Assembly (NCBI RefSeq): GCF_029873635.1
Contig: NC_080418.1
Span: 13,433,562-13,497,561 of the forward strand
Source: Malania oleifera
Taxonomy: Eukaryota > Streptophyta > Magnoliopsida > Santalales > Ximeniaceae
Direction: 5' to 3'
Length of the DNA stretch: 64,000 bases
Below, piece after piece: positions 588 through 46,985 of this stretch; position 1 is the first letter of the stretch; the number at the start of each line of letters is the position of its first letter. The notes below the pieces were generated by a model. That model saw only the letters and a list, made by a program, of their open reading frames with translations, had not been told where the DNA came from and did not search any database. Both the position numbers and the translations under genes were made by a program.

Positions 588-2469
588 AACTCTCAGTAAG
601 ACAAAATATGCTATTATCTGTGTGTGGCAACTGAGTTTACATAAACAATATATTTTAATCAACTAAATCTGAACTAACAAGTAAGATAAAGTACAATATA
701 ACACACACCTATGTGGCTTAAAATTTCAACTGTTTCTGTACTTTCTATTTAATCATACTTTTAGTAACTGCAAATATATCTGTTGTTTTCTATAAATTTT
801 TATATATATACATAACGATGAAAAACTTCCTTGGATGGTTGTATGTCCTGATTTAACCCCTCATGACAAGGTTGTGCGGTCCGTAGGCGGGACTTGACAC
901 TGGTTGGCCTACCAGGATAAGTCAACTAAAACCTCTGTCGTTAGACCGGCTGCCTCAACCCAGACTATTGGGGTGCCTACAATCTCTCCCAAGGCACGGT
1001 CGACTACTCATAAAATCCACACACTATCTGAGATATGTGGTTGTACTCTGAACTGAAATAGCTATGGTACGGTGCTCTAAAATCTGATCTGGTCCATCAG
1101 GATCTGATACTGTATAATATTAATTTATATATATCTTACTGTTTGACCATGATTTTGTTTCAACTGTAATAACCATAACATTGTAAAAGCATATCTGAAT
1201 AAACTGTAATATCTTATCTGAATAAACTGTAATATGTGAACGTTATGGTTCTGTAATATGAATATCATGGTATTCTAAAAATTCTATAAAATATCTTTCT
1301 ATGTGAATACTCTAAATCATGATTCTGTAAAACATATTTCTGTACATATATACTAAAAATCATGATACTATAAAAGTTGTGCAAATTTTGTACTAAACTG
1401 ACATTTACTCATGCCACACAATTAAATAAATAAAACTCATATACTGAAACTCGTATTTTCCTGATAATAAAGATAATTTATGATCTGAGGAATTATCTTG
1501 AAAACACATAATTTCATACCTTTAAACATCTAGAATTCATATCCCAAAATACATATATTTTACTGGTAGAAATTCCTAAAATTACTAGCATATCATATTT
1601 CCCTTACCTGATTCCTATGAAGCCTGCTAAGCTCTAAATCTACACCTCGATGGCATTCAAAGCTTAAATCCTTGAAATTATATTTTTCCCCAAATCAATC
1701 AACCCAACTCAGAATGATAACTATACTCGCCTTCCTCAGGCTCACATATTTCTTTATCCATAAAATTCTAAACTACTAATTATTTGTCAACTTTACCAGA
1801 GTTCTTGAGTAAACACCCACTGGGCTCCTCAACCCATGCTTGCGGTGTTTGGAAACCCAAACTCTGAAATCACAACACCCAAATTAAATCAACTCAGATT
1901 CCAGTATATTTCCATCTAACACAAAATCTGGGTTCAGAAAACCCTACTAACCATATAAACCCTAAAATAACCTACTTACCCTGATTTTGGGATAGTACCT
2001 AAACTTCTCAAACCAAAATTCTACTCCAGCTAAGTTATAGAGAATCTCCCCGGGATCATCGTGGTAGCTTCTAATCATCTAACCGAGGAAAAATGGGGCC
2101 AAAATCTTAGAGAGAATGTGGAGAGATCGTATGTAGAGAAAGAAAGAGAGAGAACAATAATCTCACTAGGATTTTGTGTATATATATATAAACTGCTGCC
2201 ACATGGCTTCGTCGATGAGACACTTGGATTCATCGATGAACCGAAAAAGGGAGTTCATCGACGAAAGTGACAAGCTCGTCGATGAAACAAAGGGTATGAA
2301 TTCCGCCCTCTCAGTATCTTTTCGTCGACAAGACACTAGGATTCGTCCACGAACCATACAAGGGAGTTCGTCGACGAAACCAGGGCATTCGTCTACAAAC
2401 CATGCCTCGTCCCTTTTGAATTTTCCTTTCTCTCTATTATTTAATTATTATTATTTTATAGATCTCTAC
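588..2469 (-). mobile_element. Truncated minus-strand gypsy (Tekay-like) LTR
   Basis: The segment is collinear with the complete minus-strand LTR at 40369-42330: a 'ctcagtaag' block at 592, the 'ggttgtgcgg' block near 870 (compare 40970), and the palindrome array at 2208-2399 (compare 42067-42251). Both ends are missing: the left is replaced by the copia-type LTR at 587, the right is fused at about 2469 to gag sequence. Many CG dinucleotides have become TG or CA, so it is one of the older copies. AT content is high and no coding capacity is seen inside. Confidence 0.7.
2208..2399. promoter_or_regulatory. Palindrome array (TTCGTCGACGAA type), decayed copy
   Basis: Eight copies of a 12-bp motif derived from TTCGTCGACGAA start at 2208, 2229, 2254, 2275, 2321, 2342, 2367 and 2388. 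The spacings are 21, 25, 21, 46, 21, 25, 21 bp: two identical blocks of four. Spacer sequences between motifs differ between blocks. Several copies carry CG to TG/CA changes (for example TTCATCGATGAA). Position in the LTR corresponds to U3, upstream of the transcription start on the minus strand. Function unknown; an enhancer-like role is inference. Confidence 0.8.
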
Positions 2470-4695: not shown

Positions 4696-6519
4696 TGTAA
4701 GAACCTGAACCATGATATGTGGGTTTAAATAATAAAGAGAAGGCTAAAATTGGAATTTGAGTAGGCTTCGTCGACAAAACCAAATTTCGTCGACGAAGGC
4801 TTTGTTCTGCTCGTTGACGAAGTTCAGAGGCTCGCGACGAGGAGAAGCCAGGAGATTTTGGGAAATCGGGGATCTCAGGCTCGTCGACGAGGTCACTATC
4901 TCGTCAACGAAGTCGCCATTCGTTGACAATGGCAGCCGGGTCAAAGGGCTATAAATATCCTTTCTCATTGTTTAATCACTAAGAAAACTAAAAATCCTCT
5001 CCCTCTCTCTCTATAACTCATCCTACTCTCTCTCTCTCTCTCTCTCTCTGTAGATTTCTTCGCCGTTCGTCGTTGGAATCGATGATCTAACATTACCACG
5101 AGGGTGAGGGAAGGATTCTATACAAAACCTATGGATCGAAATCCCGTTTCGGAGATTTTCAGGTTTCGGCTTAAAATTGAGGTAAGGCTCAATTTTCTTT
5201 TCTGATCCGGTAGTTTGGTAGAGGACGGAGTCGTGATTATTTTCTGTATTGTGTTTTGTAGGTTTTGAGAACTCGGTTCACTGTTTAGGAGCCATAGAGT
5301 TCGGGATTGATCTTTTGGGGGAAAGGTAAGGGAATACAGTTTATATTGGTTATTTTTTAAATCGGACTCGGTAGAACTGTGGTTCATGGTCTTGTGTGCG
5401 TTTTGGTTACTCATTTGGGGGAAATCTGACGGATAAAATTATGGGTTTTTCATGCTACAGTTTTGGGAAAAAGGGGGTATTGGGTTACATCCCTGGTTTT
5501 GTTGAAAACCATTGGTATATTATGATTTATACTATGTACTAGGGATGGTCGTGCCTTGACTTTGTTTTAAACTGTATATGATTAGAACGCATGATTTTTG
5601 GATTACCAAATGGGTGTGGTAGGTTTGGTTATATGAGCATGCATGAATGTGTTATGTTGAAATGCAATAGTAACTGCGTTCCGAATTATTCCAGGTACTG
5701 AAAGAGTGTCCAGCTCTATATCTGAGGGCATGTGTTTATCGCCTGCCATGTTGTCAAGAGTGTCCAGCTCTATATCCGAGGGCATGAGCCTGTATTGGTT
5801 GATCACCGAAGGGTGTGGATCCACCAGGTTGCGCCGGTACGATGCCATGGGAGTTTGGGACTAGCAATGTGTCGGTGGCGCCGTATTTCGCGGGTTGGCT
5901 ACGGGCTAACGCCATATGTCGCGGACTGGTTACGGGCCGAGGAGTGTGATGACACCGTGTAGATCATGGGTGTGTGTATGCGTGTGTGTGCGTTATGCAC
6001 TATATTGGAACTGTATTGTGAGAATCCTGGAATTGCATTAACTGTGTTTATTTGCTGTCATGATAACACTCGAATGCCACACACTACTATAGTCTGTATT
6101 TTCCTTACTGAGATGTGTCTCACCCCTGCTGTACGTACATTTTTACAGGGTTTTCGAGTAATCGGAACTAGTGTCCTTGAATTGGGTGCGTAGTGCCTGA
6201 TGTACTGCGGGTAGCGCTTGGGTAAGTGCTAGGACTTGTGCTTCGCGGGTTGCCATTTTGGGGTATGTTGGCACCCGGATGTACATTTTGTATGTATGGA
6301 GCCAGGACTCCGCTTTGTTTTGTATAGACTCTGGTATGGTACAGAACATGTATAGAATGACCTTTTTCGTTGTGTATATGATTTGTGTATGGATGCGTAT
6401 AGGGTTCCTGGTAACCCCACTGGGTCGAACCCTCATTCATTATGTTGTCTCGTTGTTATTTGTATGATACAGGGACAGGTTAGGTTACTAATTCACCACT
6501 GGACCCCATTTCTAGGTTC
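4696..6519 (+). mobile_element. Tekay-type solo LTR inside copia pol
   Basis: The segment starts TGTAAGAACC and closely parallels, in the opposite orientation, the LTRs of the full Tekay element at 23964-33371: shared start, palindrome array, 'gggtcaaag' plus TATA zone, and end block 'gacaggttaggttact'. Its last dozen bases (expected GGGGCGTGACA) are missing, so no right target duplication can be read; the left five bases are CAAAG. Copia reading frame resumes at once on both sides, confirming an insertion. It contains a two-copy 52-bp repeat near 5703-5790. Confidence 0.8.
4767..4930. promoter_or_regulatory. Palindrome array and TATA box of the solo LTR
   Basis: Seven motif copies of TTCGTCGACGAA type start at 4767, 4786, 4810, 4831, 4880, 4900 and 4919 (spacings 19, 24, 21, 49, 20, 19). 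A TATAAATA box at 4950-4957 follows 20 bp after the last motif, then a (TC)n tract (5020-5049). This fixes the array as U3, immediately upstream of the core promoter. Confidence 0.8.
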
Positions 6520-11106: not shown

Positions 11107-11432
11107 TGTAGAGACCCGAATAATTATCATAATTTAATAATAGGAGGAGGTAAAGAAAGAAGGAATTAAAGAACGAAATTAAACAAGGTCTCGTCGACGA
11201 ACACAAGGGATTCATCGACAAGCACACATGAGGGACTCGTTGACGGGGACATGTCTTGTCAACGAGAAGATACCAAGAAGATATATCGCAGTTCTAAATT
11301 TCGTCAACAAGGAGTAAACATTCATCGACGAATTTCCTTCTTGACCTCGTCAACGAAGTGATGTGACTCATCGACGAAGGCCAGCGTATAAATAAACCTA
11401 AACTTCATTTTTGGCCAAAATTCACGCACAAA

Positions 11433-19721: not shown

Positions 19722-19866
19722 CTTGTCGACGAACACAGGGGATTCGTGGACGAGAAGATACCGAGAGAGGGTTTTGGGGAAGACTGAAATTCATCAACGA
19801 AGGTGCAGGTTCGTCGACGAACTTTCTACAGGACGCGTCGACGAGGTGACGTGTCTCGTCGACGAA
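19722..19866. promoter_or_regulatory. Palindrome array, first block partly lost
   Basis: Motifs start at 19722, 19743, 19790, 19810, 19834 and 19855 (spacings 21, 47, 20, 24, 21). The downstream block of four is complete and keeps the family spacing; the upstream block has lost two copies. The last motif (CTCGTCGACGAA) ends 7 bp before the TATA zone. Confidence 0.8.
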
Positions 19867-23268: not shown

Positions 23269-24581
23269 TCATCTCAAGTTACTTAATATTTTATTGTGGT
23301 TAAAAGGGTTAATTTCTCTAAATTAATTTAAAACAAATCTAATAATGCCCTACATGTCCTAAACAGTCATAATTTGGCCTTGGTCTATATATATGAGCTC
23401 ATTTGTGAGGATTAGCAATTAATTAGAAAAAATCATTAACAAAAATACTCTCTATTTTCAAAATCCCATTTTGCTCAAATACTCTCATTCCTTCATTCCC
23501 TTGATACATTTTAGTATTGTGAGAGTATATTGATTGTGTTAGTGCTTGTTAAATATTACTAATACTCCCATTGCCTTGATTGTTTATTGATATTGATCTT
23601 GGGGGAGTTTAGTTAAGTTTATCCCACAGATTTGAACATTATAAATCTTGTGTTGGGAGAAACTAACAAGCTTAAGGATCTTTACATTGTCATTGCAAGA
23701 TTCCTATAGCTTTGATTTTCTTGTGCAAAATATTTTTCTACAAGCTACAATATTTTCAAACTACTCATGTGTTCATTTCATTAAAGGAAATCTTTTAAGT
23801 TAGTTTGAATATCTTATTAGCATCTTTGAAACCCTGATTTGTTATTGAAATTTGATATAACTTGTTTCAAAGATATACCTTGTTTAGAACACTCTTGAAC
23901 ATTCTTGTGATCACATCTTGTTGAGTGTTGTTTGCACAAATATTCACATCACTGGGCTTACATTGTCACGCCCCGAACCCTGAAATGGGACCTAGGGGTG
24001 AATTAAGTAACCTAACCTGTCTCTGTATCAATATAAACATACATGATACCATATACAAGAGGGTCCGACCCCATGGGGTAACGGATGCCCTATATACATA
24101 CATACAATACGTGTCCATACTCATCAATATACGCAGTGAAATACGGTCTTTCTTTACATCAAATTGTACCATACCAGAATCTATACCATATAGGGTTAAA
24201 CATACCTACAAATACTATACATACCACGGGTGTCTACAAAATCTATCAGGACAACCCGGTTACAAAATTCATACCTATCAGGTACTAACAATAGCTAAAC
24301 ACACCCCTCGCTTCTGGATGCTAGGATGCTAGTTTCGGCTACCCAAAAGACTTGAAAAACATTTGTATATATATTCGGGGTGAGACACCTCTTAGTAAGG
24401 GAGGAAATGGGTTATATCAGTGTGTGGCATACCAGTATCATTTTCATACTTCATAACACATACATACGATACAGTTTGAAACACATACGTACAGTTTCAA
24501 AACAAGTTCCATACATTCCCATACAATTCCATACAGTTCCAGTATTTTCACAAAACCAATCCAGTTCATATGATACTCAAA

Positions 24582-24612
<31 letters not shown>

Positions 24613-24902
24613 GGTCAGTATCGTCACACAACTCACAACTGCACAAGTCACCTAGTCTCACAGCGGTTACGTTCCAACACATTAAACTACGAAGGTTTCC
24701 AACTCAGGCCCAATAGTGAATCCATTGCTACACATGCAACTACACAAGGTCACCTGGTCTAACCCCGATTACATTACCATGTGCAAACTACGCTACGTCA
24801 ACCTAGGCCCACTGTGGTCCGTTGCTACATTCGGTGACCAACCGAATCATACTGGTGATATTTCGCACCCCGGATATAGAGCCGGCCACTCTTGCCCACA
24901 GT

Positions 24903-25010
24903 AGTTAACCATTACAGGGCACAACGTACGGTAGTTAGCCGCCACTAGCCGTTACGGTGTACGGTAGTTAGTCGCCCCTAGCCGTTACGGCGTACGATAG
25001 TTAGCAGCCC
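24903..25010. repeat. 33-bp tandem repeat in Tekay LTR
   Basis: Units of the form 'gtagttagccgcc' plus 'ctagccgttacggcgtacg' recur three to four times with substitutions. The 5' LTR carries the same zone (32244-32350) with a small deletion in one unit. It lies in the same general LTR region as the 'gcgcgaggccgt' repeat of the related LTRs. Confidence 0.8.
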
Positions 25011-25813
25011 CTAGCCATTTTTCACAAAACCTGGAATCACTTTGGAACTCACGTCCCTATACATTTCAGCGTACGGTAATAAGCCGCCACATAGCTGTTT
25101 TTCACAAATATCTGGAACAACATACAAATATACACACATACCACACTTATTTGGTTTATGGCAAATCATATCGTTTACAATTTCAAGTATACAGTTTATG
25201 CAAATATGGATTACGGTCACCTCAATAATACAGTGTAAATAACATAAACGGTTTTCCAATCAAATAAGAGATGATACCCGAAATCCCCAATTTTCCTAAA
25301 AACTGCAACCCGAAAATCCCGTGTTTTCACCCGATAGATTTCCCCAAATAAGTAGTCAAAACATACATACGATCGTAGCCTATAGGCCTACCGATCCTGA
25401 TTTCGAAGATGAACTGATATAAACAGAATCCCCTTACCTCAACTTGAAACTAAACCACGAACTCTACGGCCCTCAAAACTACGAACCGAGACTCCGAAAT
25501 CTACAAATCACAATACTAAACATGCTTACGATCCATACTACTATACATATACAAAATCAGAAATGAAAACCGAACCTTATCTCGATTTTGGCCTGAAACC
25601 CAAAAACGCTCGAACCGAGATTCCGATCCACAGAAGTTGTAGAGAATCCCTCCACGATCCTCGTGGTAACCTCAGATTTCCAATTCTATCAACGACCGGC
25701 AAGGAAATCTAGAGAGAGAGAGTAGAGAGAGTTTAGAGAGAGAGAGAGAGAGAGAGAGACTTAGTGAAGAAGAAACCAAATATCCCCTTTTTAAGCCTTT
25801 GACCCGCCCGGTT

Positions 25814-25983
25814 TTCGTCGACGAAAAGTACCTTCGTTGACGAAAAATCAAGAATTTCGTCGTGGATGTCAGTAGCCTTTGCGACGAAGTCTGATATTTA
25901 GAATTTTCCACACCTCTCGGCTTCTCTTCTTCGATGAACCTCTGAATTTCGTCGACAAAAAGTCTACTGCCTTCGTCGACGAA
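25814..25983. promoter_or_regulatory. Palindrome array in the 3' LTR
   Basis: Motif copies start near 25814, 25833, 25856, 25877, 25927, 25948 and 25972 (spacings 19, 23, 21, 50, 21, 24). Two are exact TTCGTCGACGAA. On the minus strand they lie 40-210 bp inside the LTR start, in U3. The final unit present in the other LTR is missing. Confidence 0.8.
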
Positions 25984-26021
25984 ATCTGCAGAAATCTCTT
26001 TATATTTTTCGAGTTCTTACA

Positions 26022-26380: not shown

Positions 26381-26529
26381 AGGAAAATACCGTGGTCACA
26401 TACATACACGGGCTCAGGAGCTCACAATACTACAGGACTCTCCCTGATACTAACCACTGAATACAATACGATGATAGAGGATTACATACATACATACTCA
26501 TACTACCCTGCTATCAAAATACTACTCAT

Positions 26530-26908
26530 ACAGCTGTGGATACTTCCGGCGTATCTCCATTTCTAGTTCCCAAGAAGCCTCCTCTACCTCGTGGTTTCGC
26601 CACAATACCTTCACTAATGGTATCTCTTTGGTACGGAGCTTCTAAACTTTACGATCCAGAACTTGAATAGGTATCTCCTCATATGCTAAAGTATCCCCAA
26701 TTTCCAACTCATCGTAACTGATAACATGAGATGGATCCAACACGTACCTTCTCAGCATAGATATGTGAAACACATCGTGGACCCTCGAAAGTGCTGGAGG
26801 TAATGCTACTCTATAGGCTACAGGACCCACTCTCTCAAGTACCTCGATTGGTCCAATATACCTCGGGCTCAACTTGCCCTTCCTGCTGAATCTCATCACT
26901 CCCTTCAT
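26530..26908 (-). pseudogene. Tekay integrase tail and chromodomain
   Basis: The frame opens [20 protein letters not shown], the conserved chromovirus integrase tail (usually KLSPRFIGPFEIL). It continues through [13 protein letters not shown], then [12 protein letters not shown]. One TAG stop at about 26642 follows. Beyond the stop the same frame reads KLRTKEIPLVKVLWRNHEVEEASWELEMEIRRKYPQL in two halves, with the aromatic and acidic residues of the Tekay-type chromodomain. The domain is thought to steer integration to marked chromatin; here it is cut off by the stop (probably CAG to TAG). Confidence 0.85.
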
Positions 26909-26917
26909 CAGAGCGAT

Positions 26918-27949
26918 TCACAGAAATACCTTACCTCCCACTTCGAACTCTAACTCCCGGTGGCGAACATCCGCATAACTCTTCTGCCGACTCTGAGCTG
27001 ATCTAATCCTCTCCCGGATCAAACCCACCTTCTCAAATGCCTGCTGCACAAGTTCAGGTCCTAAAACCTGACGTTCACCCACCTCATCCCAATACAAAGG
27101 AGACCGACACCTTCGACCATACAAAGCCTCAAACGGTGCCATCCCCATACTAGCCTGGAAGCTGTTGTTATAGGCAAACTCCACTAGTGGCAGAAACTGA
27201 ATCCAACTACCATCGAAGTCTAATACACAAGCCCGTAACATATCCTCCAAGATCTGTATCGTCCTCTCCGACTGTCCATCAGTCTGGGGGTGGAACACTG
27301 TACTGAAAGTAAGCTTCATCCCCAATGACTCCTGCAAGCTCTTCCAAAATTGAGAAGTAAACCTCGCATCCCGATCTAAAACAATGGACACCGGAACTCC
27401 ATGCATTCTCACAATCTCATGCACATACAACTCTGCTAGCCTACTCAAAGAGTAGTTAACCTTCATCGGTATGAAGTGAGCAGATTTTGTCAACCTGTCC
27501 ACAATTACCCAAATAGCATTCTGCCTGTGAAGCGCTGTCGGTAATCCGGTAACAAAGTCCATGGAAATATGTTCCCATTTCCATACTAGAATAGGCAAAG
27601 GCTGCAACGGCCCTACCGGCCTCTGATGTTCAGCTTTCACCTGCTGACACGTCAGACACTGCTCCACAAACCGAGCAATATCCCTCTTCATACCACTCCA
27701 CCAGAAGGACTTGCACAAATCCCGATACATCTTTGTACTACCCGGATGTATCGTATACAAAAAACGATGCGCTTCCTCCAGAATCATCCTTCTAATCTCA
27801 TCGTCACTTGGAACACATAACTTGGTCCCAAACTTCAACACACCTATATCAGAGATGTTAAAATCCGCAGCCAAACCCTGCCGTACTTTCGCCTCAATCT
27901 CTGCTAACTCTCCATCACTGGCCTGCGCAGCTTTAATACGCTCAAACAA
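26918..27949 (-). pseudogene. Tekay integrase (343-residue open frame)
   Basis: The HHCC zinc region is EEAHRFLYTIHPG...KSFWWSGMKRDI...CLTCQQVK (residues about 78-125). The catalytic core has MDFVTGLP, VDRLTKSAHFIP, DRDARFTSQFW and the HPQTDGQSERTIQ-to-EDMLR stretch, giving the D, D and E of the DDE triad. A GMAPFEALYGRRCRSPL block follows. The frame is open for 1032 bp, the best-preserved part of the element. Upstream it is separated from RNase H by a stop at about 27955, and downstream from the tail by a stop near 26915, so no full polyprotein can be made. Confidence 0.9.
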
Positions 27950-27955
27950 AGTCGG

Positions 27956-28490
27956 TTAGATTACCAAGCTGGCAATGAAAGCCTGATGATCACCAGACAT
28001 CAACTCTACGCTAAGGCTTTCCAAATCTCGTATGATATGATGCTGAGCTACAACTGTAGATACTGCTGCATGTTCTGACTTCCAACTCAACGCATCTACT
28101 ACCACATTAGCCTTTCCTGGGTGATAGCTGATCGTACAATCGTAGTCCTTAATCAATTCTAGCCTCCGCCTTTGCCTCATATTCTGCTCTTTCTACATGA
28201 AGAAATACCTAAGGCTCTTATGATCAGTGAAGATCTCACACTGTACACCATACAGGTAGTGTCGCCGGATCTTTAAGGCATAAACAACAGCATCTAACTC
28301 TAAGTCATGTGTAGGGTAATTCTTCTCATACTCCTTAAGTTGCCGAGAAGCATAAGCTACCACCTTACCCTATTGCATAAGCACACATCCCAAACCTTTC
28401 AGAGACGCGTCACTATAAATCACAAAGTCCCCATCCCCCGAAGGAATGGTCAACATCGGAGCAGTAACCAGCCGGTGCTTCAACTCGAGA
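27956..28490 (-). pseudogene. Tekay RNase H
   Basis: In the same frame as the reverse transcriptase: LTIPSGDGDFVIYSDASLKGLGCVL split around the first catalytic aspartate, [27 protein letters not shown] (second acidic residue), [10 protein letters not shown] (third aspartate) and ELIKDYDCTISYHPGKANVVVDALS (final block, usually ADALS). Stops occur near 28493, 28370 and 28195. All catalytic residues are still readable. Non-functional because of the stops. Confidence 0.85.
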
Positions 28491-28495
28491 AAACA

Positions 28496-29487
28496 CTACT
28501 CGCAATTACTAGTCCAGTCATACCTCACCCCCTTCTTAGTCAACCGTGTCAGAGGTCCAGACAATTTAGAAAATCCCTCCACGAACCGACGATAGTAACC
28601 CGCCAGTCCGATAAAACTCCGAACCTCCTGCACACTCTTTGGTCTAGCCCAGTTGACCACAGCTTCAATCTTGCCAGGATCAACAGAGATACCGCCCTCA
28701 GACACCAAATGGCCTAAGAACGCGACTTGATTTAGCCAAAACTCACACTTCTTCAGCTTAGCGTATAGCTTCTTCTCTCGCAACCTCTGTAGCACTAACC
28801 TCAAATGGTACTCATGCTCTTCCAAACTCTTCGAATATACCAGAATGTCATCAATGAATACCACTACGAATCGATCTAGGTACTCATGGAAAACCCTGTT
28901 CATTAGATCCATGAACACTGTCGGCGCATTGGTCAACCCGAATGGCATAACCAAGAATTCATAGTGGCCATATCTGGTTCGAAAAGCAGTCTTTGCTACA
29001 TCCCCAGATCTAACCTTCACCTGATGATACCCTGACCGTAGGTCAATCTTCGAAAAGACCTGTGTTCCCTGCAGCTGGTCAAATAGATCATCTATACGAG
29101 GTAAAGGGTAACGGTTCTTCATTGTCACTTTGTTAATCTCACGGTAATCAATGCACATCCACATCGACTCGTCCTTCTTCTTTACAAATAGTACTGGAGC
29201 TCCCCAAGGCAAAACACTGGGTAGAATGAATCCCCTATCCAGCAATTCCTGCAACTGCTCCTTTAACTCCCAAAATTTTGCTCAAGCCATCTGGTATGGA
29301 GTTTAGAGATTGGTGCCTTGCCAGGCAGCAACTCAATCGCAAAATCCACCTCACAATCCGGAGGTAAATCGGGTAAATCATCTGGAAACACATCTAGGAA
29401 CTCGTTGACTACCCGAATGTCCTCGAGTCTCAACTCATTTCGCGGTGGTTCCTGCACACAAGGTAAGTACCCCTGACATCCGTCCAA
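28496..29487 (-). pseudogene. Tekay reverse transcriptase with upstream linker
   Basis: The linker (29487-29263) reads VVNEFLDVFPDDLPDLPPDCEV and IELLPGKAPISK, then is frameshifted near 29270. The reverse transcriptase frame (29254-28496) shows [57 protein letters not shown] and [10 protein letters not shown] (catalytic YxDD position is FIDD), then [11 protein letters not shown]. Domain length is as expected. One substitution from the usual consensus is ESMWMC (usually GSMRLC). Confidence 0.9.
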
Positions 29488-29520
29488 GAGTAACCTCCTC
29501 GCCTATAATGCCGATAAGAT

Positions 29521-30153
29521 CTATGGCGTCGGACGCACACACGATCCCAAAAACTCATACTCCTGTTTCCCAAGAGGTCTGAACACTACTACCCTCTTCC
29601 AACAGTCAATTACTGCATAACTGGAGAACAACCAATCCATTCCCAGTATGACGTCAAAACCTGACATGTCGTATACCACAAGGTTTGCTGGTAACAGTCT
29701 CTCCTGAATCACAACTGGGTAGTTTTCTAACATCTTACTACAAACCGATTCACTCCTAGTTAGCGTAATCACAGACAACAACTCATTCATCACACAAGTT
29801 TTTGCCTCGCACAATTTCACAAAACTAGCAGATATAAACGAATGGGTTGCCCCCGAATCAAATAAAACAACAGCTTTATTCAAAAGCAATAACATGGTAC
29901 CTGTCACCACGTTCCCAGCGTGTTCCGCATCTGCTGGAGTAAGCAAATATACTCTTGCCGGAGCCGTTGCCAGAGCCGTGGTTGCCTGATAATTTCCCCG
30001 AGGCACCTGATTACTCCCACGGTTCTGGCTTTGTGCAGGCATAATCCTTCTCTGTTCCGGACAATACTTCGCCATGTGGCCCGGCTGGCCACAGTTGAAG
30101 CAAACACCCCTATATGGCTGACACTCGCCTTCGTGCCATTTATGGCACTTCAC
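29521..30153 (-). pseudogene. Tekay gag end: zinc knuckle and aspartic protease
   Basis: A 210-residue open frame. The zinc knuckle CFNCGQPGHMAKYC (CX2CX4HX4C, about residues 18-31) is intact. The protease has VVLFDSGATHSFIS (active-site DSG) and the FDVILGMDWL hinge block. It is in a different frame from gag's first part, the same frame as the linker that follows, and ends in a stop at 29521. Confidence 0.9.
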
Positions 30154-30246
30154 GCACGGTGCGAAGGATGGATCCCCCTGAGAACTCAGCCACTCAGTGT
30201 TCTGCCGATACCCGAAACCATAGCTCTTCTTCTTCTTCCACGATCC

Positions 30247-30985
30247 CTACCGAGAACCACTCTGAGGACCAGAAGATACTGGCCTCTTCCCCTGTATCTG
30301 AACTACCTCATCTCCTCGAAGGTCGGTCTCAACTATGGTGGCTTTATCCACTAGAACAGAAAACTCACGGATCTGCAACATCCCCACAAGACGACGAATG
30401 TCTTTCCTCAGACCCTTCTCGAACCTCCGAGTCGTGCTCATTAGGAACTATGTATGGTGCAAATCGAGATAACTCGATGTATCTGGAAGCATATCTTTGC
30501 ATCGACAAAGTCCCCTACGTCAGGCCTGAAAACCCATCAGCCTTCACATTCCGAGTGGAGACCTGAAAGTATCTCTCGAAGAATACCTCCTTGAAGCGGC
30601 CCCACGTCATAGCAAATGAACCAGCTCTCTGCCTCTCAAGCAGACTCACCACTGTCCACCATCGCCCTGCCTCCCCAGCCAGCTGGAAGGTAGCGTACAA
30701 GACCTTCTGCTTCTCAGTGCAGTGGAGGACTCCCAAAATCCTCTCGGTCTTCTCAATCAAATCTTTCGCCACAATCGGATCCGGTCCTCCCGTAAATGTC
30801 AGAGGGTGCATGCGTGTGAACCTCTCAATGGTACACCCTGCATCAGTAGGAGAGCTCTCACGTCTCCTAACACTCCGCCCAATTTCTCGGATCACTTGTC
30901 TCGCCATACTACAAGACACAGAAGAAGACTCATCACTTGCTGTCTCCTTGGAGCCACTTTCCAAGTTATTATCCTTGGGCTCCAT
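30247..30985 (-). pseudogene. Tekay gag, frameshifted
   Basis: The start ATG is at 30985 (MEPKDNNLESG). Key motifs are FTRMHPLTFTGGPDPIVAKD, VLHCTEKQKVLYATFQLAGE, RWWTVVSLLERQR and RFKEVFFERYF, the retrotransposon gag domain. Near 30515 the frame closes. It resumes one base out of phase (30441-30247: ERRFEKGLRKDI-like block, then VDKATIVETDL), so there is a single frameshift between about 30515 and 30441, plus a stop near 30245. Upstream of the ATG an open stretch continues to 31039 but lacks gag similarity. Confidence 0.85.
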
Positions 30986-31294
30986 ACTGAAAACAGAATA
31001 GGATTCGGTTAGAATCCCTACAACACATACAGTTAACACAATGATCTATACTAATTGTGTTAACTACTTCCTGCCAGGTCCAGGTCTGTCCTATCACACC
31101 GACACGAAAGTCATCAATGATCTGCCCTGTTTTTACTGGAATCGTCATCTTAGGAAAAACATGGAATACCGTCGACAATTCCCGGTCTAGCAACCAAACA
31201 ACCCCAACCAATTCTACCCATATCCACATCCTATACCCTGGTATGTACACATCAATACTCCTAACCAAGTCTACAAGACCTAATAACTTGGTTA

Positions 31295-31307: not shown

Positions 31308-31309
31308 GC

Positions 31310-33063
31310 TGTCACGCCCCGAATCCTGAAAAGGGACCTAGGGGTGAATTCAGTAACCTAACCTGTCTCTGTATCAATATAAACATACATGATACCATAT
31401 ACAAGAGGGTCCGACCCCATGGGGTAACGGATGCCCTATATACATACATACAATACGTGTCCATACTCATCAATATACGCAGCGAAATAAGGTCTTTCTT
31501 TACATCAAACTGTACCATACCAGAATCTATACCATACAGGGTTAAACATACCTACAAATACTATACATACCACGGGTGTCTACAAAATCCATCAGGACTA
31601 CCCGATTACAAAATTTGTACCTATCAGGTACTAACAGTAGCTAAACACACCCCCCGCTTCCGGATGCTAGGATGCTAGTTTCGACTACCCAAAGGACTTG
31701 AAAAACATTTGTATATATATTCGGGGTGAGACACCTCTCAGTAAGGGAGAAAACGGGTTATATCAATGTGTGGCATACTAGTGTCATTTTCATACTTCAT
31801 AACACATACATACGATACAGTTTGAAACACATACGAACAGTTTCAAAACAAGTTCCATACATTCCCATACAATTCCATACAGTTCCAGTATTTTCACAAA
31901 ACCATTCCAGTTCATACGATACTCAAATACATACATACATACATACATACATACAGTCAGTGTCGTCACACTACTCACAACTGCACAAGTAACCTAGTCT
32001 CACAGTGGTTACGTTCCAACACATTAAACTACAAAGGTTTCTGACTCAGGCCCAATAGTGAATCCATTGCTACACATGCAACTACACAAGGTCACCTGGT
32101 CTAACCCCGATTACGTTACCATGTGCAAACTACGCTGCTTCAACCTAGGCCCATTGTGGTCCGTTGCTACATTCGGTGACCAACCGAATCATACTGGTGA
32201 TATTTCGCACCCCGGATATAGAGTCGGCCACTCTTGCCCATGGTAGTTAACCGTTACAAGGCACAACGTACGGTAGTTAGCCCTAGCTGTTACAGTGTAC
32301 GGTAGTTACCCGCCCCTAGCCGTTACGGCGTATGGTAGTTAGCCGCCCCTAGCCATTTTTCACAAAACCTGGAATCACTTTGGAACTCACGTCCCTATAC
32401 ATTTCAGCGTACGGTAATAAGCCGCCACATAGCTGTTTTTCACAAATATCTGGAACAACATACAAACATACACACATACCACACTTATTTGGTTTATGGC
32501 AAATCATATCGTTTACAATTTCAAGTATATAGTTTATGCAAATATGGATTACGGTCACCTCAATAATACAGTGTAAATAACATAAACGGTTTTCCAATCA
32601 AATAAGAGATGATACCCGAAATCCCCAATTTTCCCGAAAACTATAACCCGAAAATCCCGTGTTTTCACCCGATAGATTTCCCCAAATAAGTAGTCAAAAC
32701 ATACATACGATCGTAGCTTACAGGCCTACCAAACCTAATTTCGAAGATGAATTGATATAAACAGAATCCCCTTACCTCAACCCGAAACCAAACCACGAAC
32801 TCTACGGCCCTCAAAACTATGAACTAAGACTCCGAAATCTACAAATCACAATACTAAACATGCTTACGATCCATACTACTATACATATACCGAATCAGAA
32901 ATGAAAACCGAACCTTACCTCGATTTTGGCCCAAAACACGAAAACGCTCGAAACGAGATTTCGATCCACAGAAGTTGTAGAGAATCCTTCCACGATCCTC
33001 GTGGTAACCTCAGATTTCCGATTCTATCAATGTCTGGCAAGGAAATCCAAAGAGAGAGAGTTT

Positions 33064-33094
<31 letters not shown>

Positions 33095-33371
33095 GTGAAG
33101 AAGAAACCAAATATCCCCTTTTTAAGCCTTTGACCCACCCGATTTTTGTCAATGAAAAGTACCTTCATCGACGAAAAATCAAGAATTTCGTCGCGGATGT
33201 CGGCAGCCTCATCGACGAAGTTTGATATTTAGAATTTTCCAGACCTGTCGGCTTCTCTTCATCGACGAACCTCTGAATTTCGTTGAGGAAAAGTCTACTG
33301 CCTTCGTCGATGAAATCTGGCTTCGTCAACGAAATCTGCAGAAATCCCTTTATATTTTTCGGGTTCTTACA
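31310..33371 (-). repeat. 5' LTR of the Tekay element
   Basis: 2062 bp; on the minus strand TGTAAGAACCCG to GGGGCGTGACA. The palindrome array occupies 33144-33333 with eight copies, one more than the 3' LTR: an extra 'cttcgtcaacgaaatctgg'-type unit at 33311-33333. A (GA)n tract lies at 33061-33090 and the 33-bp tandem zone at 32244-32350. Confidence 0.95.
33144..33333. promoter_or_regulatory. Palindrome array in the 5' LTR, eight units
   Basis: Units run from 'ttttgtcaatga' at 33144 to 'cttcgtcaacga' ending at 33333. The central gap of about 50 bp separates two groups of four. Comparison with the 3' LTR shows the same order except for one extra distal unit here. CG to CA/TG changes hit different copies in the two LTRs, showing independent decay since insertion. 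Confidence 0.8.
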
Positions 33372-38616: not shown

Positions 38617-40071
38617 TCATGACCCTGTAAATCTAAATTCTGGTTTTCCTGGAGGTCTAAATATCACCTCCCTTGCACGACAATTTATAATAGCAAAATT
38701 AGCTGCTAGCCAATCCATGTCAAAGATAATGTCAAACCCGTGCATATCTAGCATCACCAAATCGGCAGATAAAATTCTCCCCTGAACATCAATTGGGCAA
38801 CCACGGAGCATCCTACTACATCTCACTGCTGACCTAGTAGGTGTTGCCACTAACAGTTCAACATCTAATGATTGCGTTTCCGCCCCATATAATTTAACAC
38901 ATCCCTAGGACACAAACGAGTGTGTGGCACCAGAATCAAAAAGTGCAATAACTTTTAATGAAAACATACTAACAGTACCTATCACCACGTCGCCGGCCGC
39001 CTCGGCATCGCCCGATGTCAAAGCAAAAACCCTAGCTGGGGTCATATTCCTCTGTTGGCCTCCACGTGGTGCCTGGTAACCTCCTCGTGCAGGTCTAGGA
39101 GCAGGAGCAGCTCCAATCTGTGTCGGACACTCCCTCATCATATGTCCTGGCTCCCCGCACCTGTAGCAGACGCCTCACCCGGCATGACACTCTCCTGGGT
39201 GCCTCTTCCCACAAGTCGGGCAAACTGGAGATGATTGTGCACCCTAAAAACCGCGATTCCCGGTCTCCTGTCTTCGGTCCCTATAGTAGCCACCTCTCTT
39301 CCACAAACCACGTCCAATCCCCTGCTGGGAACCAGAAGGTGTGGATCTCTTCTTCTACCTCTGCTCCTTAGCCTCCAATCGCTCACCAATCTCTGCTATA
39401 GTGACTCTATCCACTAACTCAGCAAAATCCTACAGCTTCAATATCGATACCTGCTTATAAATTTCTCTCCTCAAGCCTCTTTCAAACTTTCGTACCTTCT
39501 TTACCTCATCTGGAATGACATACGGGGCGAAGCGGGATAGCTCGATGAACCTCACTGCGTACTGCTGTACTAACAGCTGTCCCTACTTCAGATTCAGGAA
39601 CTCCTCAATCTTAGCCTCCCTGGACGAGGCTGGAAAATACCTATCAAAGAATATTCCTTTAAACCGCTCTCACGTCATCTCCACGGGTATAGTCCTCTGC
39701 TGCTCTAAAAGTTTTACCGCTGACCACCATCTCTCGACCTCTCCAGTCAGTCTATAGGTGGCAAACAACACTTTCTGCTCCTCTGAACACTGCAGCACTG
39801 CAAATATTTTCTCTATGTCCTGCACCCAGTTTTCAGCAACTGCAAGATCTATCCCTCCTAAGAAAGCCAGAAGACTCATCTTAATAAACTTCTCAATCGA
39901 ACTACTGTGGCCTGCCGATGGACCACCCGGTTCCTTTGAACTCCTAGCAATTTTTACCATAACCTGTTGTGCTACGCTGCGTAAAACGGCATCTGAATCA
40001 CTACCCGTAGCGCTTGAGGGTCCAGCACCCTCACTCCCAATAGCGTGGGCACTATTGCCACCAAGGTCCAT
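38617..40071 (-). pseudogene. Gag-protease of the truncated Tekay relative
   Basis: The start is [17 protein letters not shown] (40071). The gag domain shows [34 protein letters not shown] and [13 protein letters not shown] up to about 39670. It continues in broken frames through RFIELSRFAPYVIPDE, a zinc knuckle CYRCGEPGHMMREC (about 39165-39125) and protease LFDSGATHSFVS (about 38930), then FDIIFDMDWLAANFA (usual FDVILGMDWL, so two substitutions) and VIFRPPGKPEFRF. Several stops and frameshifts. Relative to the full Tekay element it belongs to a sister lineage. Confidence 0.85.
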
Positions 40072-42066
40072 CCTGAAAATAAATAACTTAACTCAAAACC
40101 TCCTTTTCTATACATATCACTCAACTCATATAATATATCCTCCTAATCTTAATTCAAGGTTCAATTCTGCAACCTAGATACCCAACCCGGCGATAGTTTA
40201 CAATGAATTTCCTGAAATCGTCACCCCAGGAAAATCACACAAACCACCACGAAAGTCCTGCATTTAGACTACAAAACCAGACCTCAAATCCCATTATCCT
40301 ATACTCTGGTTATTACTGCTGCACTCTAGAGTTTACAAAACCTAATATCCTAGACTCTGATACCAAATGTAGCGACCTCAATTTTCTTAACATAATATGT
40401 CCCATAATAGATAAAATGGCCAACCTGAACCCGTGGGTTACGGGGACACCTGTCAATCACAGCGAAAACCTAAGCAACAACAATCATAAAATTGAAACCA
40501 TCCATTCATCAAGCATAATACTAGAGTTTACTACAACATCATAATACTGTATTTTTATACATCCTCATAAACATAAAAATAACTCTAAGGTCAAACACAA
40601 AATAATTCTGATCCTAGTACAAAAATCTTACCCTCCTAACGGGGTAATATCCCTAACTCAACAGCGGCCACAACCCGCCGGTCACACAGGGTCTCTTGAA
40701 AAAATAATTAATGTTAGGGGTGAGATACATCTCAGTAAGGGAAAATAAACTAAATACAATTGTACAACAACATGAACATTTAATGCAATTATACATATAC
40801 AGTACATTTCATATTTTCATAAACGTGGATCATATTATACTGAATAATCACATGCTTTCATATTTTCTAGTAAGTCGTATCATACATAAAACATCTGTTA
40901 TACTGATAATACTGAAAACATACCCATAATGAATAGCTAGCTAATGTCATGTATTACCCCCTATGACGGGTTGTGCAGCCCGAAAGCGGAACCCGATAAT
41001 GGCTGGCCGACCACTGCCGAATCAAATATGTCTATAAGTATGATGAGCCCGCCACACCGTGGTCCGGACTATTAATTGGACGTCCACACTCTACTGAAAG
41101 CCACATCGACTATTCATCTCCTACCCCCTCATAGGGTGGTTAGCACGAATTTGAACATAGATATCTGATCTATATAGTTTTGGTACCGAGCTCCTGAACT
41201 AAACTAAACTAACATTCGGGTTCTGATAACATATAGTACATGATTATATAGCATTTTTCATAATTACGGCCTCGTGCCGAGCATATCATAATTACGGCCT
41301 CGTGCCGATATCATACATAAATACGTCATTCTAAAAATAATCATTTTATCATGCATTTATAAGAATCATAATGTACTGTATACCTTCATAACCTCTCAAA
41401 TCATACTGCATTTACATCATTATCATATCAAAATATTTCTCCACGTAAAATAATATTCATGCCACACATTTGTTGTATTAAAACTATTCATTGCACTTGA
41501 AAATCATGATTTCTGGCATTTCATACGTATATACTCGTTCCAACATAATAACAGTATTTTTCCCAAAAGTGTATTAATTCCATAATATGCTAATATCATA
41601 CATATTTTCAAGAAATCAATTTACTCATAAATAATAGAAATTTGCGTGAAAAGTAACTGCTTTAGTTTATTCCCTTACCTGGCTACTAAGAAAAGCCCGT
41701 ATAAACTCTAATCTCACACCCGTAGGGTTTCCTGATCAATACCTTGAAACTAAAAACTTTCAATATTAAACTTCAGTATTTCGATGTGTACATCATTTCC
41801 TATAACTACCGTAAAGTCAAATTTGGCATAAAAAGTCTTACCTCAACCCAGGGATGATTTCCAACTTACTTTTACCAACGATCCGCTCCGGCAGATTTGG
41901 AGAGAACTTCCCCATGAGTGTCGTGGTGACTTTGGATTGTTGAACTGGTGTAAATCCGGCCCAAAATCGATGAGAGAGAGAAAGAGAACCGAAGAAGAGA
42001 GAGAGAGGGTGAAGGTTGCTTAATAATGAAGTTAAAAATTCGGATTTTTCTATTTATAGAACTGGA

Positions 42067-42251
42067 TTCGTCGACGAGCCATGTCATTCGTCGACGAATT
42101 CTTCAATAATTTCGTCGACGAAATTCAGTCCTCGTCGACGAAATGCAGTAGGCTCAAAACTTTCTCGGTATTTCTTCGTCGACGAAATTCAATCTTCGTC
42201 GATGAATTTTCTTAAGCCCTCGTCGACGAATCCCCTGTATTCGTCGACGAA
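42067..42251. promoter_or_regulatory. Best-preserved palindrome array
   Basis: Eight copies at 42067, 42087, 42111, 42131, 42175, 42195, 42219 and 42240 (spacings 20, 24, 20, 44, 20, 24, 21). Four are exact TTCGTCGACGAA, three differ only at one outer base, one has a single CG to TG change. Spacer sequences between equivalent motifs of the two blocks are unrelated. On the minus strand the array lies 80-265 bp inside the LTR start; a TATA-like 'tctataaatag' follows at about 42058-42048. Confidence 0.85.
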
Positions 42252-43453
42252 GTCGACTTCCTTCCTCTGTTACCATTTCCATTTCCCTTCTTCTTATTAT
42301 TTAAATCCCATTATTATCCGGGTTGTTACATAGGTGGGTTGGTGTGTGTGCTTTTTGTGTAGTAGTGTGTGTGCAGGTGTGTGTGTGTGTGTTAGTGGTG
42401 TGTGTTTTATTATGTGTAATAGTGTGTGTGCAGGTGGGTGTATCAATGTGTGTGGCAGTAGGTGTTAGGGTGCGTGAAACGGTGTGCGCAGTGTGTGTGA
42501 GTGAGTGTAAATTAGTGTGTGTTAGGTGTGTATTTATGTGCATAAAATAGTGTGTTTTGTGTGTATTTGAGTGCGTGAAACAGTGTGTTTTGTGTTGCAG
42601 GTAGCATGTGAGTTAATGTGTGTGTGGGGGTGGAGTACGGTAATATTAGATATCAAAATAAAAATAAGTACCTACAATTAACCAACAAACATAACAAAAC
42701 TTAAACATTAGCATTTAATACTAAAATAAATATATCAACAATTTAAACCTTACAACGACAAGCACAACACACATTCAACTGAAGCATTTAATATGGAATA
42801 TAACAACAATAAAAACCCTACAATATGAATATTAACAAAAAATAATACAATAATAACAACAAAAACCTAAACATGAATATTGGCCACAATAATAATAAAG
42901 GGAAAGTCAGTAGGTGTGTGTTGAGCATGCCGGAAGTGTTTAGTGTGTGTGTGTATGTTACTGTGTGGGTGAGTGGTGTGTGTGTTACTGTGTGGGTGAG
43001 TGCTGTGTGTGCACTGTGTGGGTGAGTGCGGTGCGTACACTATGCGTGCAGTGTGTGTAGCAATGTGTAGGTGCGTGCTGTAATGTGTGTGTAGGAGTGT
43101 GCACAGGTGTGTGTAATAGTGTGTGTAATAGTGTGTGTAGTGTGTGTTTTGCTGTAATGTGTATTGTGTGTGTTTCGTTGTGTGTATTTTACTGTGTGTT
43201 AGTGTGTGTTTTGCAGGGTGTAAAAACTGTGTGCAGTGTGTGTGTTTTTTTTTTTAAGATTTTGCAGCAGGGAGCTTACTGCGGGGTTGCCATGTTCAGA
43301 CAGCCGGAGGTCATGATTGCCAGAGATGATTTGCTGCAGGGGGAGGACTGGAGCTGCGAGTGGTCTGCAGGCAATGCCAGAGGAGAGGTTTGCTAATGGA
43401 CAGCTAGGGCTGGTGAGATGCTGTTGCGATAGATGACCGGAGACGGTGGTGCG

Positions 43454-44872
43454 TGTTGACTTTATGAGTTCAATCCTGTTTTGATAATGAAAAATCACTT
43501 GGTATTTGTCATTGAGATTGTGAACATGAACAATATTTAGCATGCACGGAAGGCTAGCAAGTCATGGAAGCCATGAAGATTAAAGAATATACATCTTGAC
43601 ACAATCCATGGAACTAAAAGAGTTGAAGAATGAAGATGCAAGCGACAAGTTCAAGATCGTCATGGGAATGAGTATTTAGAACTAATGTATTTACTTATTT
43701 CATATGATTTAATTTGAGGCTCAAAATATACCCTAGACTGACCTTAAGACTTATGTATCCTATGAACATCATTAGGGGATATTTATGGACTTGGAGATAT
43801 TTTTAAAACCTCGAAAAATATTTTATAAAAGAGCAAAGAAAAAGAGCAAAGCAGATTTTTGAAACTAAAAAAGAAAAATCCAGAAAATGAACAGTTCAGA
43901 AGACCGAACTCCACGTTTAGTTGTCTAAAGATTTAACTTCAAAAAACCGAAGTTAAGCTTAGTCGTCTGAAGAATTTCTTCAGAAAACCGAAGATTAAGT
44001 TCAGTCGTCTGAAGAATTAATGGTGAAACATAGAACTGGCAAAAGCACATCAGAAAACTGAACTCAAACTTTAGTCGTCTGAACCCGACACTTCAGAAGA
44101 CTGAACCCCAACTTTAGTCGTTTAACCCTATGTCCAAGTTAATTTTCAAAGCTCTAAGGAACTTCAATCGTCGGAGCCTTAACCTTTAGTCTTTTGAACT
44201 TACGGGAAGATTAAAAATTTTGATTTTTAATGAGAGAACATGAGAGTTATTTTTTGATCCAACGATTAAGATTCATTCTAAGAGCAAGGTTACCTATATA
44301 ATCAACATCTAAACCCTAGTGCCCTACGAGAGAAAGAAGAGAAAGAATTTTTAGCATACGATTAAGCATATTGTATGATTAGCACAACTTGGGAGAATAC
44401 ATTGCTGAGTTCTTGATTGGGATTTCAAATCTTATACTTCAAATCCAAGCTAAAGTTACATTGATCTTCAAAAGAGTTTCTTGTGATTGTTGTGCAATCA
44501 ACTTGGTAATGAGGTTTGGTAAATCGATTTGCTTGTTAATAGTTATTCTCATAGAGTTTTTCATCAAAATTGATTTGCTTGTTAATATTTATTCTCAAAA
44601 AACTATTCATCTCAAAATCCATTATTGAATATTTGTTGAGAGGTTGATCTTGAGTGTGCATATATTAAATTGTTTTGATACGATCACTACTTGAGAAAAG
44701 CTTTAGCCATTGTTTAAATATTTTTTATTCAAGTGAGTTTTCATTTAAAGACTTGATATTTTTTATATTACAAAACTGCTTGATTGAATATCCTTAGCGT
44801 TTATAACTATATATATTATTGAGGGATATTTTATGAAAAATATTATATTAGGTTTTAATCTTTGGAAATCAT

Positions 44873-44908
<36 letters not shown>

Positions 44909-45688
44909 CATGTTACAAAGATCATATTGTGGTTGAATATTTGGAAGAAAGCTTATTGATTTTGATCGTTATAATATTCAAGACAAATCTTTTGATAAGT
45001 TCACATTTGATATTTGTGCATTTAGCAAGTTGAACTAGAACCCTAATTTCTCCAAAGCTTTTACTTATATCATTACTTGGGAGATTTGATAAAAGGGAAA
45101 TTGGTTGAAGCATATCATTCATACAACGATTGTATTGTTACATACATACTGAGCTTCAAGTTTCATCATATGGATATGTGTTAGGTTTCAACTGTACTCA
45201 CTAGCTTTGTTAGAAGCTAATCTTGAGTTGTTTTGCAGATTTGACATTATATATTGTAATCACAGTTCAGGTTGTGAATCGAGCAAGGAGGAAGTTGTGC
45301 CTCTTGTAAGCAGCGGATGTAAGGAAAGCTCCGTCCTGGTTAAAGGAGCAGGGATTTAGTGGAATCCTTGAGTGGGTTGCTCAAGGCGAGGACGTAGGGC
45401 GGGTTGGCTGAATTTCGTAAAAATTGTGTTTGCCTTCTCTCTTCCTTTACTCTTTTTATTTTCCGCAATGCATTTCAATATCTATCTTGCAAGTGTATGT
45501 TGAATAACCCCACACACACTTGATAATTAATTGGGTGAAAAGAATTCATTGGTTTAATAATTTAAATCAGTCTTAAACCCCTACAATCAATTTATTAAAT
45601 TTAGAAATAGGGATTAAGTGGTAAATAATCTGAAAGATTTTGAAAATACCCAAGTCACCCCCCTCTTGGGATTACACCTAAATTAATT
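43454..45688 (+). mobile_element. Copia-type solo LTR with GTGCG target duplications
   Basis: The 2235-bp segment begins TGTTGACTTTATG. GTGCG precedes (43449-43453) and follows (45689-45693). The end reads AATTAATT where the sister copy at 587 reads ATTAACA, so the terminal CA has been altered. TATA box CTATATAATC at 44294-44303. (AT)n at 44877-44904. The last 590 bp correspond to 1-587. It is inserted in the Ogre 5' LTR between the GT-rich zone and 'ggttgttgccggtgg'. Confidence 0.85.
43895..44198. promoter_or_regulatory. Alternating motif array (TTCAGACGACTGAA type)
   Basis: Twelve 14-bp motifs start at 43895, 43916, 43938, 43958, 43979, 44000, 44049, 44070, 44092, 44113, 44163 and 44185. 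Spacings are 21, 22, 20, 21, 21, 49, 21, 22, 21, 50, 22. Consecutive copies mostly alternate between a 'ttcagaagaccgaa' form and a 'tttagtcgtctgaa' form, that is the two strands of one asymmetric palindrome. The TATA box is 96 bp after the last copy. Confidence 0.85.
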
Positions 45689-46444
45689 GTGCGGTTGTTG
45701 CCGGTGGTGGCGAACGCTTCTAGTGGTTATCTGTGGTGTCGTCAACATTGGAGATGTTGACCAAGCCGGAGGAGAGGTTCACCGACACGGTGGCTAAGAG
45801 GTTCTGCGTATGAACCCTGGCAAAAGCGTAGAGAATCTGTCAGTGGCCGTATGCGACAAAGATGTCGTGAAGAAGTTGGGTGACGCTGTGAGAGATGGGT
45901 GACACTGGGAGGGTGGCCACGTGAGTTGGGGGGCTGCGTGGAGTGATGGGTGACGTCGTGAGAGATGGGTGACGTCGCGAGGGTAGCTAGAGTGGTTGAG
46001 TGGCTGTGAGGTGGCTAGGTGATCGTGAGGCGAGGGTGAGGTTGGGTCATTCCTGCTGCTGGGGAAGTGAGGTGGTTGTAGCAGTGACAGAGCAGGAGGG
46101 TGGTGGTCTGTGAGAGAGAGATTAGGGAGAAGAGATGAGGGATCTGTGCGCAGAGCGAGAGGGGGCAAGGAGACAGAGAACAGAATCTGTAGAATGAACA
46201 TTGATCCTCCCCCCCACCCTGCGCACACAACGTTTATAGGCTTATGGTTTTGTTTTTTATTGGCTAATGCATGTACCCGCGAGAAAAATGGGATGCACGC
46301 TTTACTTGAGGTGTACAAACTTTTTTTTTTTTAATACATACCACACATTTGCCCTATAGTTTTTTATGTATTATTATTTTATTTGTTTTTTTGTTTGTCC
46401 AATGTTATTCCCCCAAAAATAAAAATTAAAACTTAGTCTTCGAA

Positions 46445-46985
46445 CATTGACGGACCCGAACTTGACTACTTAAAAAAAAATGGGACTCAATTAAAATTCA
46501 CCGGGACTGAATTAAAAATACTGAGACTTGATTAAAAATATCGAAACTCGATTTACAATATCGGGACACAATTAAAAATACTGGGACTCGATTTAAAATA
46601 CCGGGACTTGACTTTAAATACCAAGACTCGACTTAAGACACCGGGAATCGACTTAAGATATCGGGACTCGACTTAAAAAAATCGGGACTTGATTGGAAAA
46701 CATACCGGGACTCAGTAAAAAACACCGGGATTCAGTGAAAACATCGGGACTCATTTAACACGTACCGAAACTCGATAAAAATACCGAGACTCGGCAAAAA
46801 CACCATGACTAACCTTAAGACACCGGGACTCATCGAACACATACTTGGACTCGGTAAAAACACTAGGGCTCGACAAAAATATCGGGACTCAACTTAAGAC
46901 ATCGAGACTCATCGAACACATACCGGGACTCTGTAAAAATACCGGGACTCGATATAAATACCTACTAAACTTAAGACACCGATAT
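46445..46985. repeat. 20-bp tandem array in Ogre 5' LTR
   Basis: Same array as at 16250-16790 ('accgggactcgacttaaga' units), here with more exact CGGGAC words. On the minus strand it begins about 105 bp inside the LTR. Confidence 0.85.

Follow-up and report, generated by a model that had tools for sequence, protein, structure and literature searches.

The closest described counterparts of the sequence array analysed here are the RM boxes of Sireviruses. According to the part of PMC2829016 considered here, both consist of a short palindrome present in multiple copies in the upstream LTR, in a CpG-dense stretch shortly before the TATA box, and in both the flanks of the palindromes have diverged. 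The RM boxes are called Sirevirus-specific in that part of the paper, on the basis of a comparison with classic Ty1/copia elements (PMC2829016). A second counterpart is found in the tandem enhancer boxes of Tnt1-type elements, which resemble the array in being repeated U3 boxes and which are cis-acting and bound by host factors.

The array was noticed in a first-pass annotation of a 64,000-nucleotide stretch of the Malania oleifera genome (hereafter the window), which described repeats of the 12-bp palindrome TTCGTCGACGAA in seven LTRs. With up to two mismatches allowed, the motif occurs 42 times in the window, compared with 1.43 matches expected (100 shuffles, maximum 6), and 41 of the 42 matches fall inside the seven places named, the stray match being located at 62263. 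All seven places were confirmed; as independent insertions they amount to six, because the arrays at 25814 and 33144 reside in the two LTRs of one element with the target duplication ATGTA. The quoted spacings between motif starts were likewise reproduced, namely 21-25-21-46-21-25-21 in array 2208 and 20-24-20-44-20-24-21 in array 42067. The proposed layout of two groups of four motifs is present in four window arrays, and motifs are missing from those at 25814, 19722 and 4767.

The main example, at 42067..42251, comprises eight motifs in two groups of four with the steps given above and zero or one mismatch per motif. In this array 23 of the 24 CpGs in motifs are intact, and TATAAATA is located 8 bp past the last motif in element sense (42051..42058, minus strand). 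Eight motifs are also found at 2208..2399, which represents a third LTR lineage and is followed by a TATA-like run 17 bp past the last motif, at 11190..11378 (family B, TATA box 8 bp after) and at 33144..33333 (family A). The family A array at 4767..4930 lacks one unit, contains one motif with a 1-nt deletion and is followed by a TATA box after 19 bp; the family B array at 19722..19866 has six motifs, without the motif 3-4 block, and a TATA box 8 bp after; and the array at 25814..25983 is one 19-bp unit shorter than that at 33144. Element sense corresponds to the minus strand for arrays 2208, 25814, 33144 and 42067, and to the plus strand for 4767, 11190 and 19722. The full window arrays span 185-192 bp. 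Motif positions 1 and 12 are often C/G rather than T/A (29 of the 102 window cells), and several motif edges carry slot-specific letters, which indicates that the array is not freely homogenised.

The losses at 25814 (19 bp) and 19722 (motif 3-4 block) have their ends inside motifs, as if motif copies had recombined or the template had slipped. The host of array 19722 is probably a solo LTR, flanked by GGGCT and GGGCC; directly before it lies a long tandem array (17162-19539) with dense self-matches and, judged by the offsets, a period of about 24-25 bp. Matching stretches of 87-93% identity, partly GT-rich, are located at 15284-16888 and 42364-47084. Remains of other retroelements, comprising one copia-type piece of gag and two of RT, lie at 9644-10207 and 61896-63467 (both minus strand), and no palindrome array was found at these two places.

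The carrier can be read from the family A element at 23964-33371 (minus strand), which has LTRs of about 2.06 kb. Its 5' LTR (31310..33371) has the duplication ATGTA and the PBS TTGGTATCAGAGC alongside, and a purine tract precedes its 3' LTR (23964..26021). Coding remains at 26525..31045, interrupted by stops, comprise gag, zinc knuckle and protease, RT, RNase H, integrase, SH3 and chromodomain, and the gene order gag-protease-RT-RNase H-integrase is that of Ty3/gypsy chromoviruses. The chromodomain piece of 39 aa, located after a stop codon, matches PF00385 with an E value of 0.0043 and 17.4 bits, under the cut-off of 25.1; it is 63% identical to the corresponding part of P0038, a bearer of PF00385. 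Moreover, chromodomain pieces adjoin integrase and SH3 at two further loci (L007 and L012), the position after the integrase that is expected for chromoviruses. Judged by these predicted domains, the array carrier is a Ty3/gypsy element with a chromodomain.

The LTR harbouring array 42067 was delimited from the sequence as 40367..42330 (minus strand), extending from TGTAACAACC to CGCTACA, and was treated as a 5' LTR. It is followed by the PBS-like TTGGTATCAGAG (40354-40366, minus strand) and, beyond this site, by protease and zinc-knuckle pieces at 38620-39174. In two of six 5-kb stretches flanking other array lineages, related coding sequences were found for gag, protease and RT (RT identity 72% and 77%), and in one of the two also for integrase; the other four of the six stretches fetched gave no match to the coding parts, which weakens the reading given here. 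No relatives of the integrase were found in viral contigs, and four viral and one bacterial pattern matches, all in GC-rich (0.60-0.72) non-plant contigs, were set aside as coincidences. A search for relatives of the array as chance open reading frames among 5.8 billion proteins (two queries, 3 and 33 candidates) yielded none at E 0.01.

In the host genome (G000, 1.494 Gb) the exact 12-mer is present at 37,861 sites, compared with 7 sites for the permuted palindrome TTCGACGTCGAA, which has the same composition and CpG number, and 67 sites for a reversed-sequence control. A sample was drawn from 100 listed exact sites on contig C1, which were grouped by eye into 61 clusters, the first 60 of which were fetched. 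Arrays were present in 60/60 loci, with 496 motif instances, 98 of them exact, and 64 arrays contained at least three motifs; every sampled array holds at least one exact motif, and all stem from one stretch of C1. If an array holds about 1.5 exact motifs, a rough extrapolation gives some 25,000 arrays genome-wide, the sampled stretch being motif-denser than the genome average.

Apart from non-overlap, the list of steps between neighbouring motifs was compiled with no spacing filter under 80 bp. The 64 arrays yielded 432 steps, and 330 of the 334 steps of up to 41 bp measured 19, 20, 21, 24 or 25 bp; the remaining ones comprised two at 22-23 bp, one at 26 bp and one at 15 bp, so that the unfiltered list is nearly empty at 22-23 and 26-41 bp. 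Exact motif pairs counted genome-wide gave 2,059 pairs at gaps of 7-9 bp, 71 at 10-11 bp and 884 at 12-13 bp. The 31 full arrays (27 new ones and the four from the window) follow the order short-long-short, centre, short-long-short, with a step SD of 0.5-0.8 bp and of 1.7 bp for the centre. Variant arrays keep these steps, whether they have an additional pair within a group, three in all (L022, L034, L073), or three groups (L061).

The members of a pair are separated by 20.26±0.69 bp, or 1.93 turns, and only these two share a helix face. The suggestion that all motifs of an array lie on one face was not borne out, the 10.5-bp phase concentration being 0.31 in the 31 full arrays versus 0.30±0.03 at random. 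Among the seven window arrays, 10.5-bp phasing was seen only for 33144 (R 0.77) and 25814 (R 0.74), which represent one insertion. That steps of 21 and 24-25 bp match the sizes of small RNAs was also considered and dropped, because steps of 19 and 20 bp occur too.

In the window, the arrays are located in U3, just inside the LTR start in element sense. A TATA-like box follows 8-19 bp past the array in all seven cases; in the full arrays it follows 7-19 bp past the last motif in 20 of 31, and none was matched by the pattern used in 11 of 31. The position upstream of the TATA zone given in the first-pass annotation was thereby confirmed. As the array begins just inside the LTR start and ends shortly before the TATA box, it fills most of the stretch in between.

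The conservation of motifs and spacers was compared among eight lineages, each represented by one array (28 pairs). Non-CpG core positions of the motif were identical in 870 of 896 between-lineage comparisons (97%). The spacer identity was 0.48 versus 0.42 after shuffling, which is near background yet slightly higher and to that degree weakens the reading given here. When the six short and long spacers were compared in length (168 comparisons), the difference was 0 bp (81), 1 bp (77) or 2 bp (10). Among 157 pairs from the 31 full arrays with downstream DNA aligning at 60-85%, pairs that are not independent of each other, mean identity was 0.72 for the downstream DNA, 0.60 for the spacers and 0.98 for the motif core. 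Per bp, lengths changed at similar rates in the spacers of these pairs (0.052) and in their flanks (0.042). All 456 spacer length changes in full arrays amounted to 1-2 bp, and 36% of 2,675 flank gaps were of at least 3 bp; the full arrays had been picked by step class, a selection that would still permit differences of 3-4 bp. In this genome sample, neither of the two patterns named in the first-pass annotation as refuting its proposal was seen: spacers are less conserved than motifs, and spacings do not scatter freely. This supports the proposal that motifs and spacing are kept and spacers are not.

The related statement that spacer sequences differ was upheld only in part. Within a lineage the spacers are related, and in array 2208 they are common to both groups (identity 0.67 versus 0.44 shuffled, with 0/500 shuffles as high). 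The spacers of families A and B in the window are near the shuffled level (z -1.4 to 2.2), with the one pair at z 2.2 weakening the reading, and within-family pairs are mostly above it. When repetition of spacers between groups, mirror or direct, was examined in the four full window arrays, it was clear only in 2208, in direct orientation; inverted repetition in array 42067 gave P 0.032 among eight tests and is not counted as a result.

Two features of individual spacers qualify that statement as well. In two sampled arrays (L051, L053) several short spacers are near-identical and YACAGGG-like, pointing to a recent modular duplication of the motif pair. The central spacer, which separates motifs 4 and 5 (42143-42174 in the window), opens with another conserved box that commonly reads (A/G)AAATACCGAGAG; among the first 13 columns of this spacer, those from 2 to 13 agree in 65-100% of the 31 full arrays, and the central spacers of full arrays often have CTGAAT at their end. 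The AAATACCGAGAG box may be a site for another protein; as a conserved stretch within a spacer it also counts against our best reading (below).

The two LTRs of an element permit an estimate of how the motifs change after insertion. In the verified LTR pair, 14 of 84 sites differ in motifs, 5 of 86 in spacers and 89 of 1873 in the remaining LTR (Fisher P 0.029 for the motif excess over spacers and 7.5e-5 over the remaining LTR). Three further candidate pairs showed the same tendency, with 43 of 312 motif sites and 25 of 334 spacer sites differing (P 0.010); for motif versus flank divergence in all four pairs P was 0.055, which weakens the reading, the flanks of the three candidate pairs including non-LTR DNA. 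Of the 193 deviations seen at CpG positions in 248 motifs, 178 are transitions of the type C>T or G>A. Because the two LTRs of an element diverge more in motifs than in spacers, the conservation of motifs between lineages does not stem from a low mutation rate. Resident copies lose the motif faster and spreading lineages keep it, a pattern that is expected if working copies need the motif.

These data also bear on the alternative that the array is an inherited repeat without current function, that is, an ancestral duplicated block whose motifs are alike by descent and by exchange between copies. Several observations are in line with it: the array slots are homologous, with edge letters recurring slot by slot, spacers within a lineage are related, array 2208 shows a group duplication, two sampled arrays reuse one short spacer in several slots, and unit losses end in motifs. 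However, the motifs, which change faster than spacers within LTR pairs, resemble each other far more closely across lineages, spacer changes of 1-2 bp are about as frequent as in flanks with no larger ones in full arrays, and hardly any steps in the unfiltered list measure 22-23 or 26-41 bp. The alternative is weakened by these results, and we consider it unlikely.

We regard it as probable that the palindromes form a cis-regulatory array close to the promoter, in the U3 region of a large chromodomain Ty3/gypsy lineage and represent putative sites for a dimeric host protein. The reading starts from what is observed, namely the motif, its layout, the bounded spacing, the place before the TATA box and the faster decay of motifs after insertion. 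From these we infer protein binding, the dimer state and a binding-driven transcription of the element. Each 12-bp palindrome YTCGTCGACGAR would most likely be bound by the host protein as a symmetric dimer. Two motifs 20±1 bp apart, about two helical turns, would form a pair, two pairs linked by a 24-25-bp step a group, and between the two groups the step would be about 46 bp. Selection on transposing copies would keep the motif core and each distance within 1-2 bp and let the spacer sequence drift; after insertion the motifs would decay, chiefly via CpG transitions. Cooperative binding of host-factor dimers would then set the transcription of the LTR, which appears to be the best fit because of the palindrome, the two-turn pairs, the groups and the place right before the TATA box.

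A further-reaching version appears rather doubtful to us. It holds that pairs of two turns, the 24-25-bp step and the step of about 46 bp constitute a fixed combinatorial grammar for a cooperative complex of several host-factor dimers, and that the elements own nearly all sites of this factor. The exact 12-bp sites in the 60 sampled loci are located in arrays, and with the extrapolated number of arrays this suggests that the elements may indeed own nearly all sites. If so, the factor would either be specialised on the elements or be a host factor whose target set was taken over.

A different function, at the level of RNA or single strands, could be served by the copy of U3 with which the element RNA ends on its 3' side: the palindromes would form hairpins there, either to the benefit of the element or as a source for silencing by small RNAs. 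According to the parts of PMC10760457 and PMC5311732 considered here, small-RNA hotspots in the LTRs of maize Sireviruses coincide with clustered palindromic motifs, and silencing through hairpins has been proposed for these elements. Motifs 20 bp apart could give 12-bp stems with loops of 7-9 nt, and folds of the arrays are predicted to be stable, in a calculation without a shuffled control. Against this, the complementarity of neighbouring motifs is not above that in within-LTR shuffles (P 0.13; 24 pairs from the seven window arrays, low power), the seven predicted folds have no common structure by eye, and pairing does not require each motif to be palindromic itself. We judge this explanation to be very unlikely.

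The seven window arrays contain 7.9-13.0 CpGs per 100 bp versus 1.3-4.3 in the next 300 bp, and CpG observed/expected is 2.64 at 42067. That the array is a platform which gathers methylatable CpGs for chromatin or methylation targeting, and not for an activator, would fit this density, the prevalence of C>T and G>A at CpG positions, as expected if methylated, and the span of the full window arrays, which we take to be about one nucleosome repeat, but is equally improbable, as such a platform needs neither fixed spacing nor the T/A at positions 2, 5, 8 and 11, which deviates in only 1.2-1.6%, and as the matched three-CpG palindrome is nearly absent (7 sites).

As for the identity of the putative dimeric host protein, we know of no factor for the full 12-mer, and the first-pass annotation likewise knew of none described. 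This needs qualification for the core GTCGAC: in Arabidopsis, the bZIP factor FD is reported to bind it in the promoter of FT, where FD ChIP enrichment dropped upon mutation of the site (part of PMC13360168 considered here); we treat this as a lead only. The identity with the motif covers the 6-bp core, and the FT promoter has a single site and no array. In the part of the review PMC12116177 considered here, G-box, C-box and ABRE are given as the main sites of FD's bZIP group and GTCGAC goes unmentioned. Under the further-reaching version above, the shared core leaves room for a florigen-pathway bZIP, which would mean expression in shoot meristems. Heat-shock and ACGT-core bZIP sites were discarded, since their half-site arrangement was unsuitable when compared by eye.

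In a limited check of the open-access literature, mostly of titles and abstracts, no description of such an array in Ty3/gypsy elements was found, and the exact 12-mer appeared in two papers, on gene editing in Clostridium and on an artificial microRNA. Measured against the RM boxes, the array likewise has a palindrome in at least eight LTR copies ahead of the TATA box, the published minimum of eight being a count for the whole element with linker copies included (part of PMC2829016 considered here). A Vitis Sirevirus box, CGGTCGACCG, even has the GTCGAC core in common with the Malania motif (same part of PMC2829016). The two differ in superfamily, as Sireviruses are Ty1/copia elements (PMC2829016, in the part considered) and the carrier of the array is Ty3/gypsy by its domain order protease-RT-RNase H-integrase and chromodomain. 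Moreover, 12 of 13 Sirevirus boxes, with Tnd-1 as the exception, show a CGG-CCG signature (same part of PMC2829016), which the motif described here does not. Judged from sequence features, the array has a Sirevirus-like anatomy, and membership fails on superfamily and core signature.

In the part of PMC2829016 considered here, no spacing rule is described for RM boxes, in contrast to the spacing of pairs and groups in the array. The Tnt1-type elements, for which that part of the paper gives two or three boxes in tandem, likewise differ from eight palindromes with two-level spacing. In our best reading, the array differs from the Sirevirus boxes in its superfamily, its motif and its strict spacing grammar. 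Being so frequent and so well delimited, the motif would lend itself as a DNA bait in the search for the factor by which a large transposon group of this genome is driven or silenced. That this architecture recurs in a superfamily unrelated to that of the Sireviruses, together with a measurable spacing rule, suggests that multi-site promoter platforms evolved repeatedly in plant retrotransposons.
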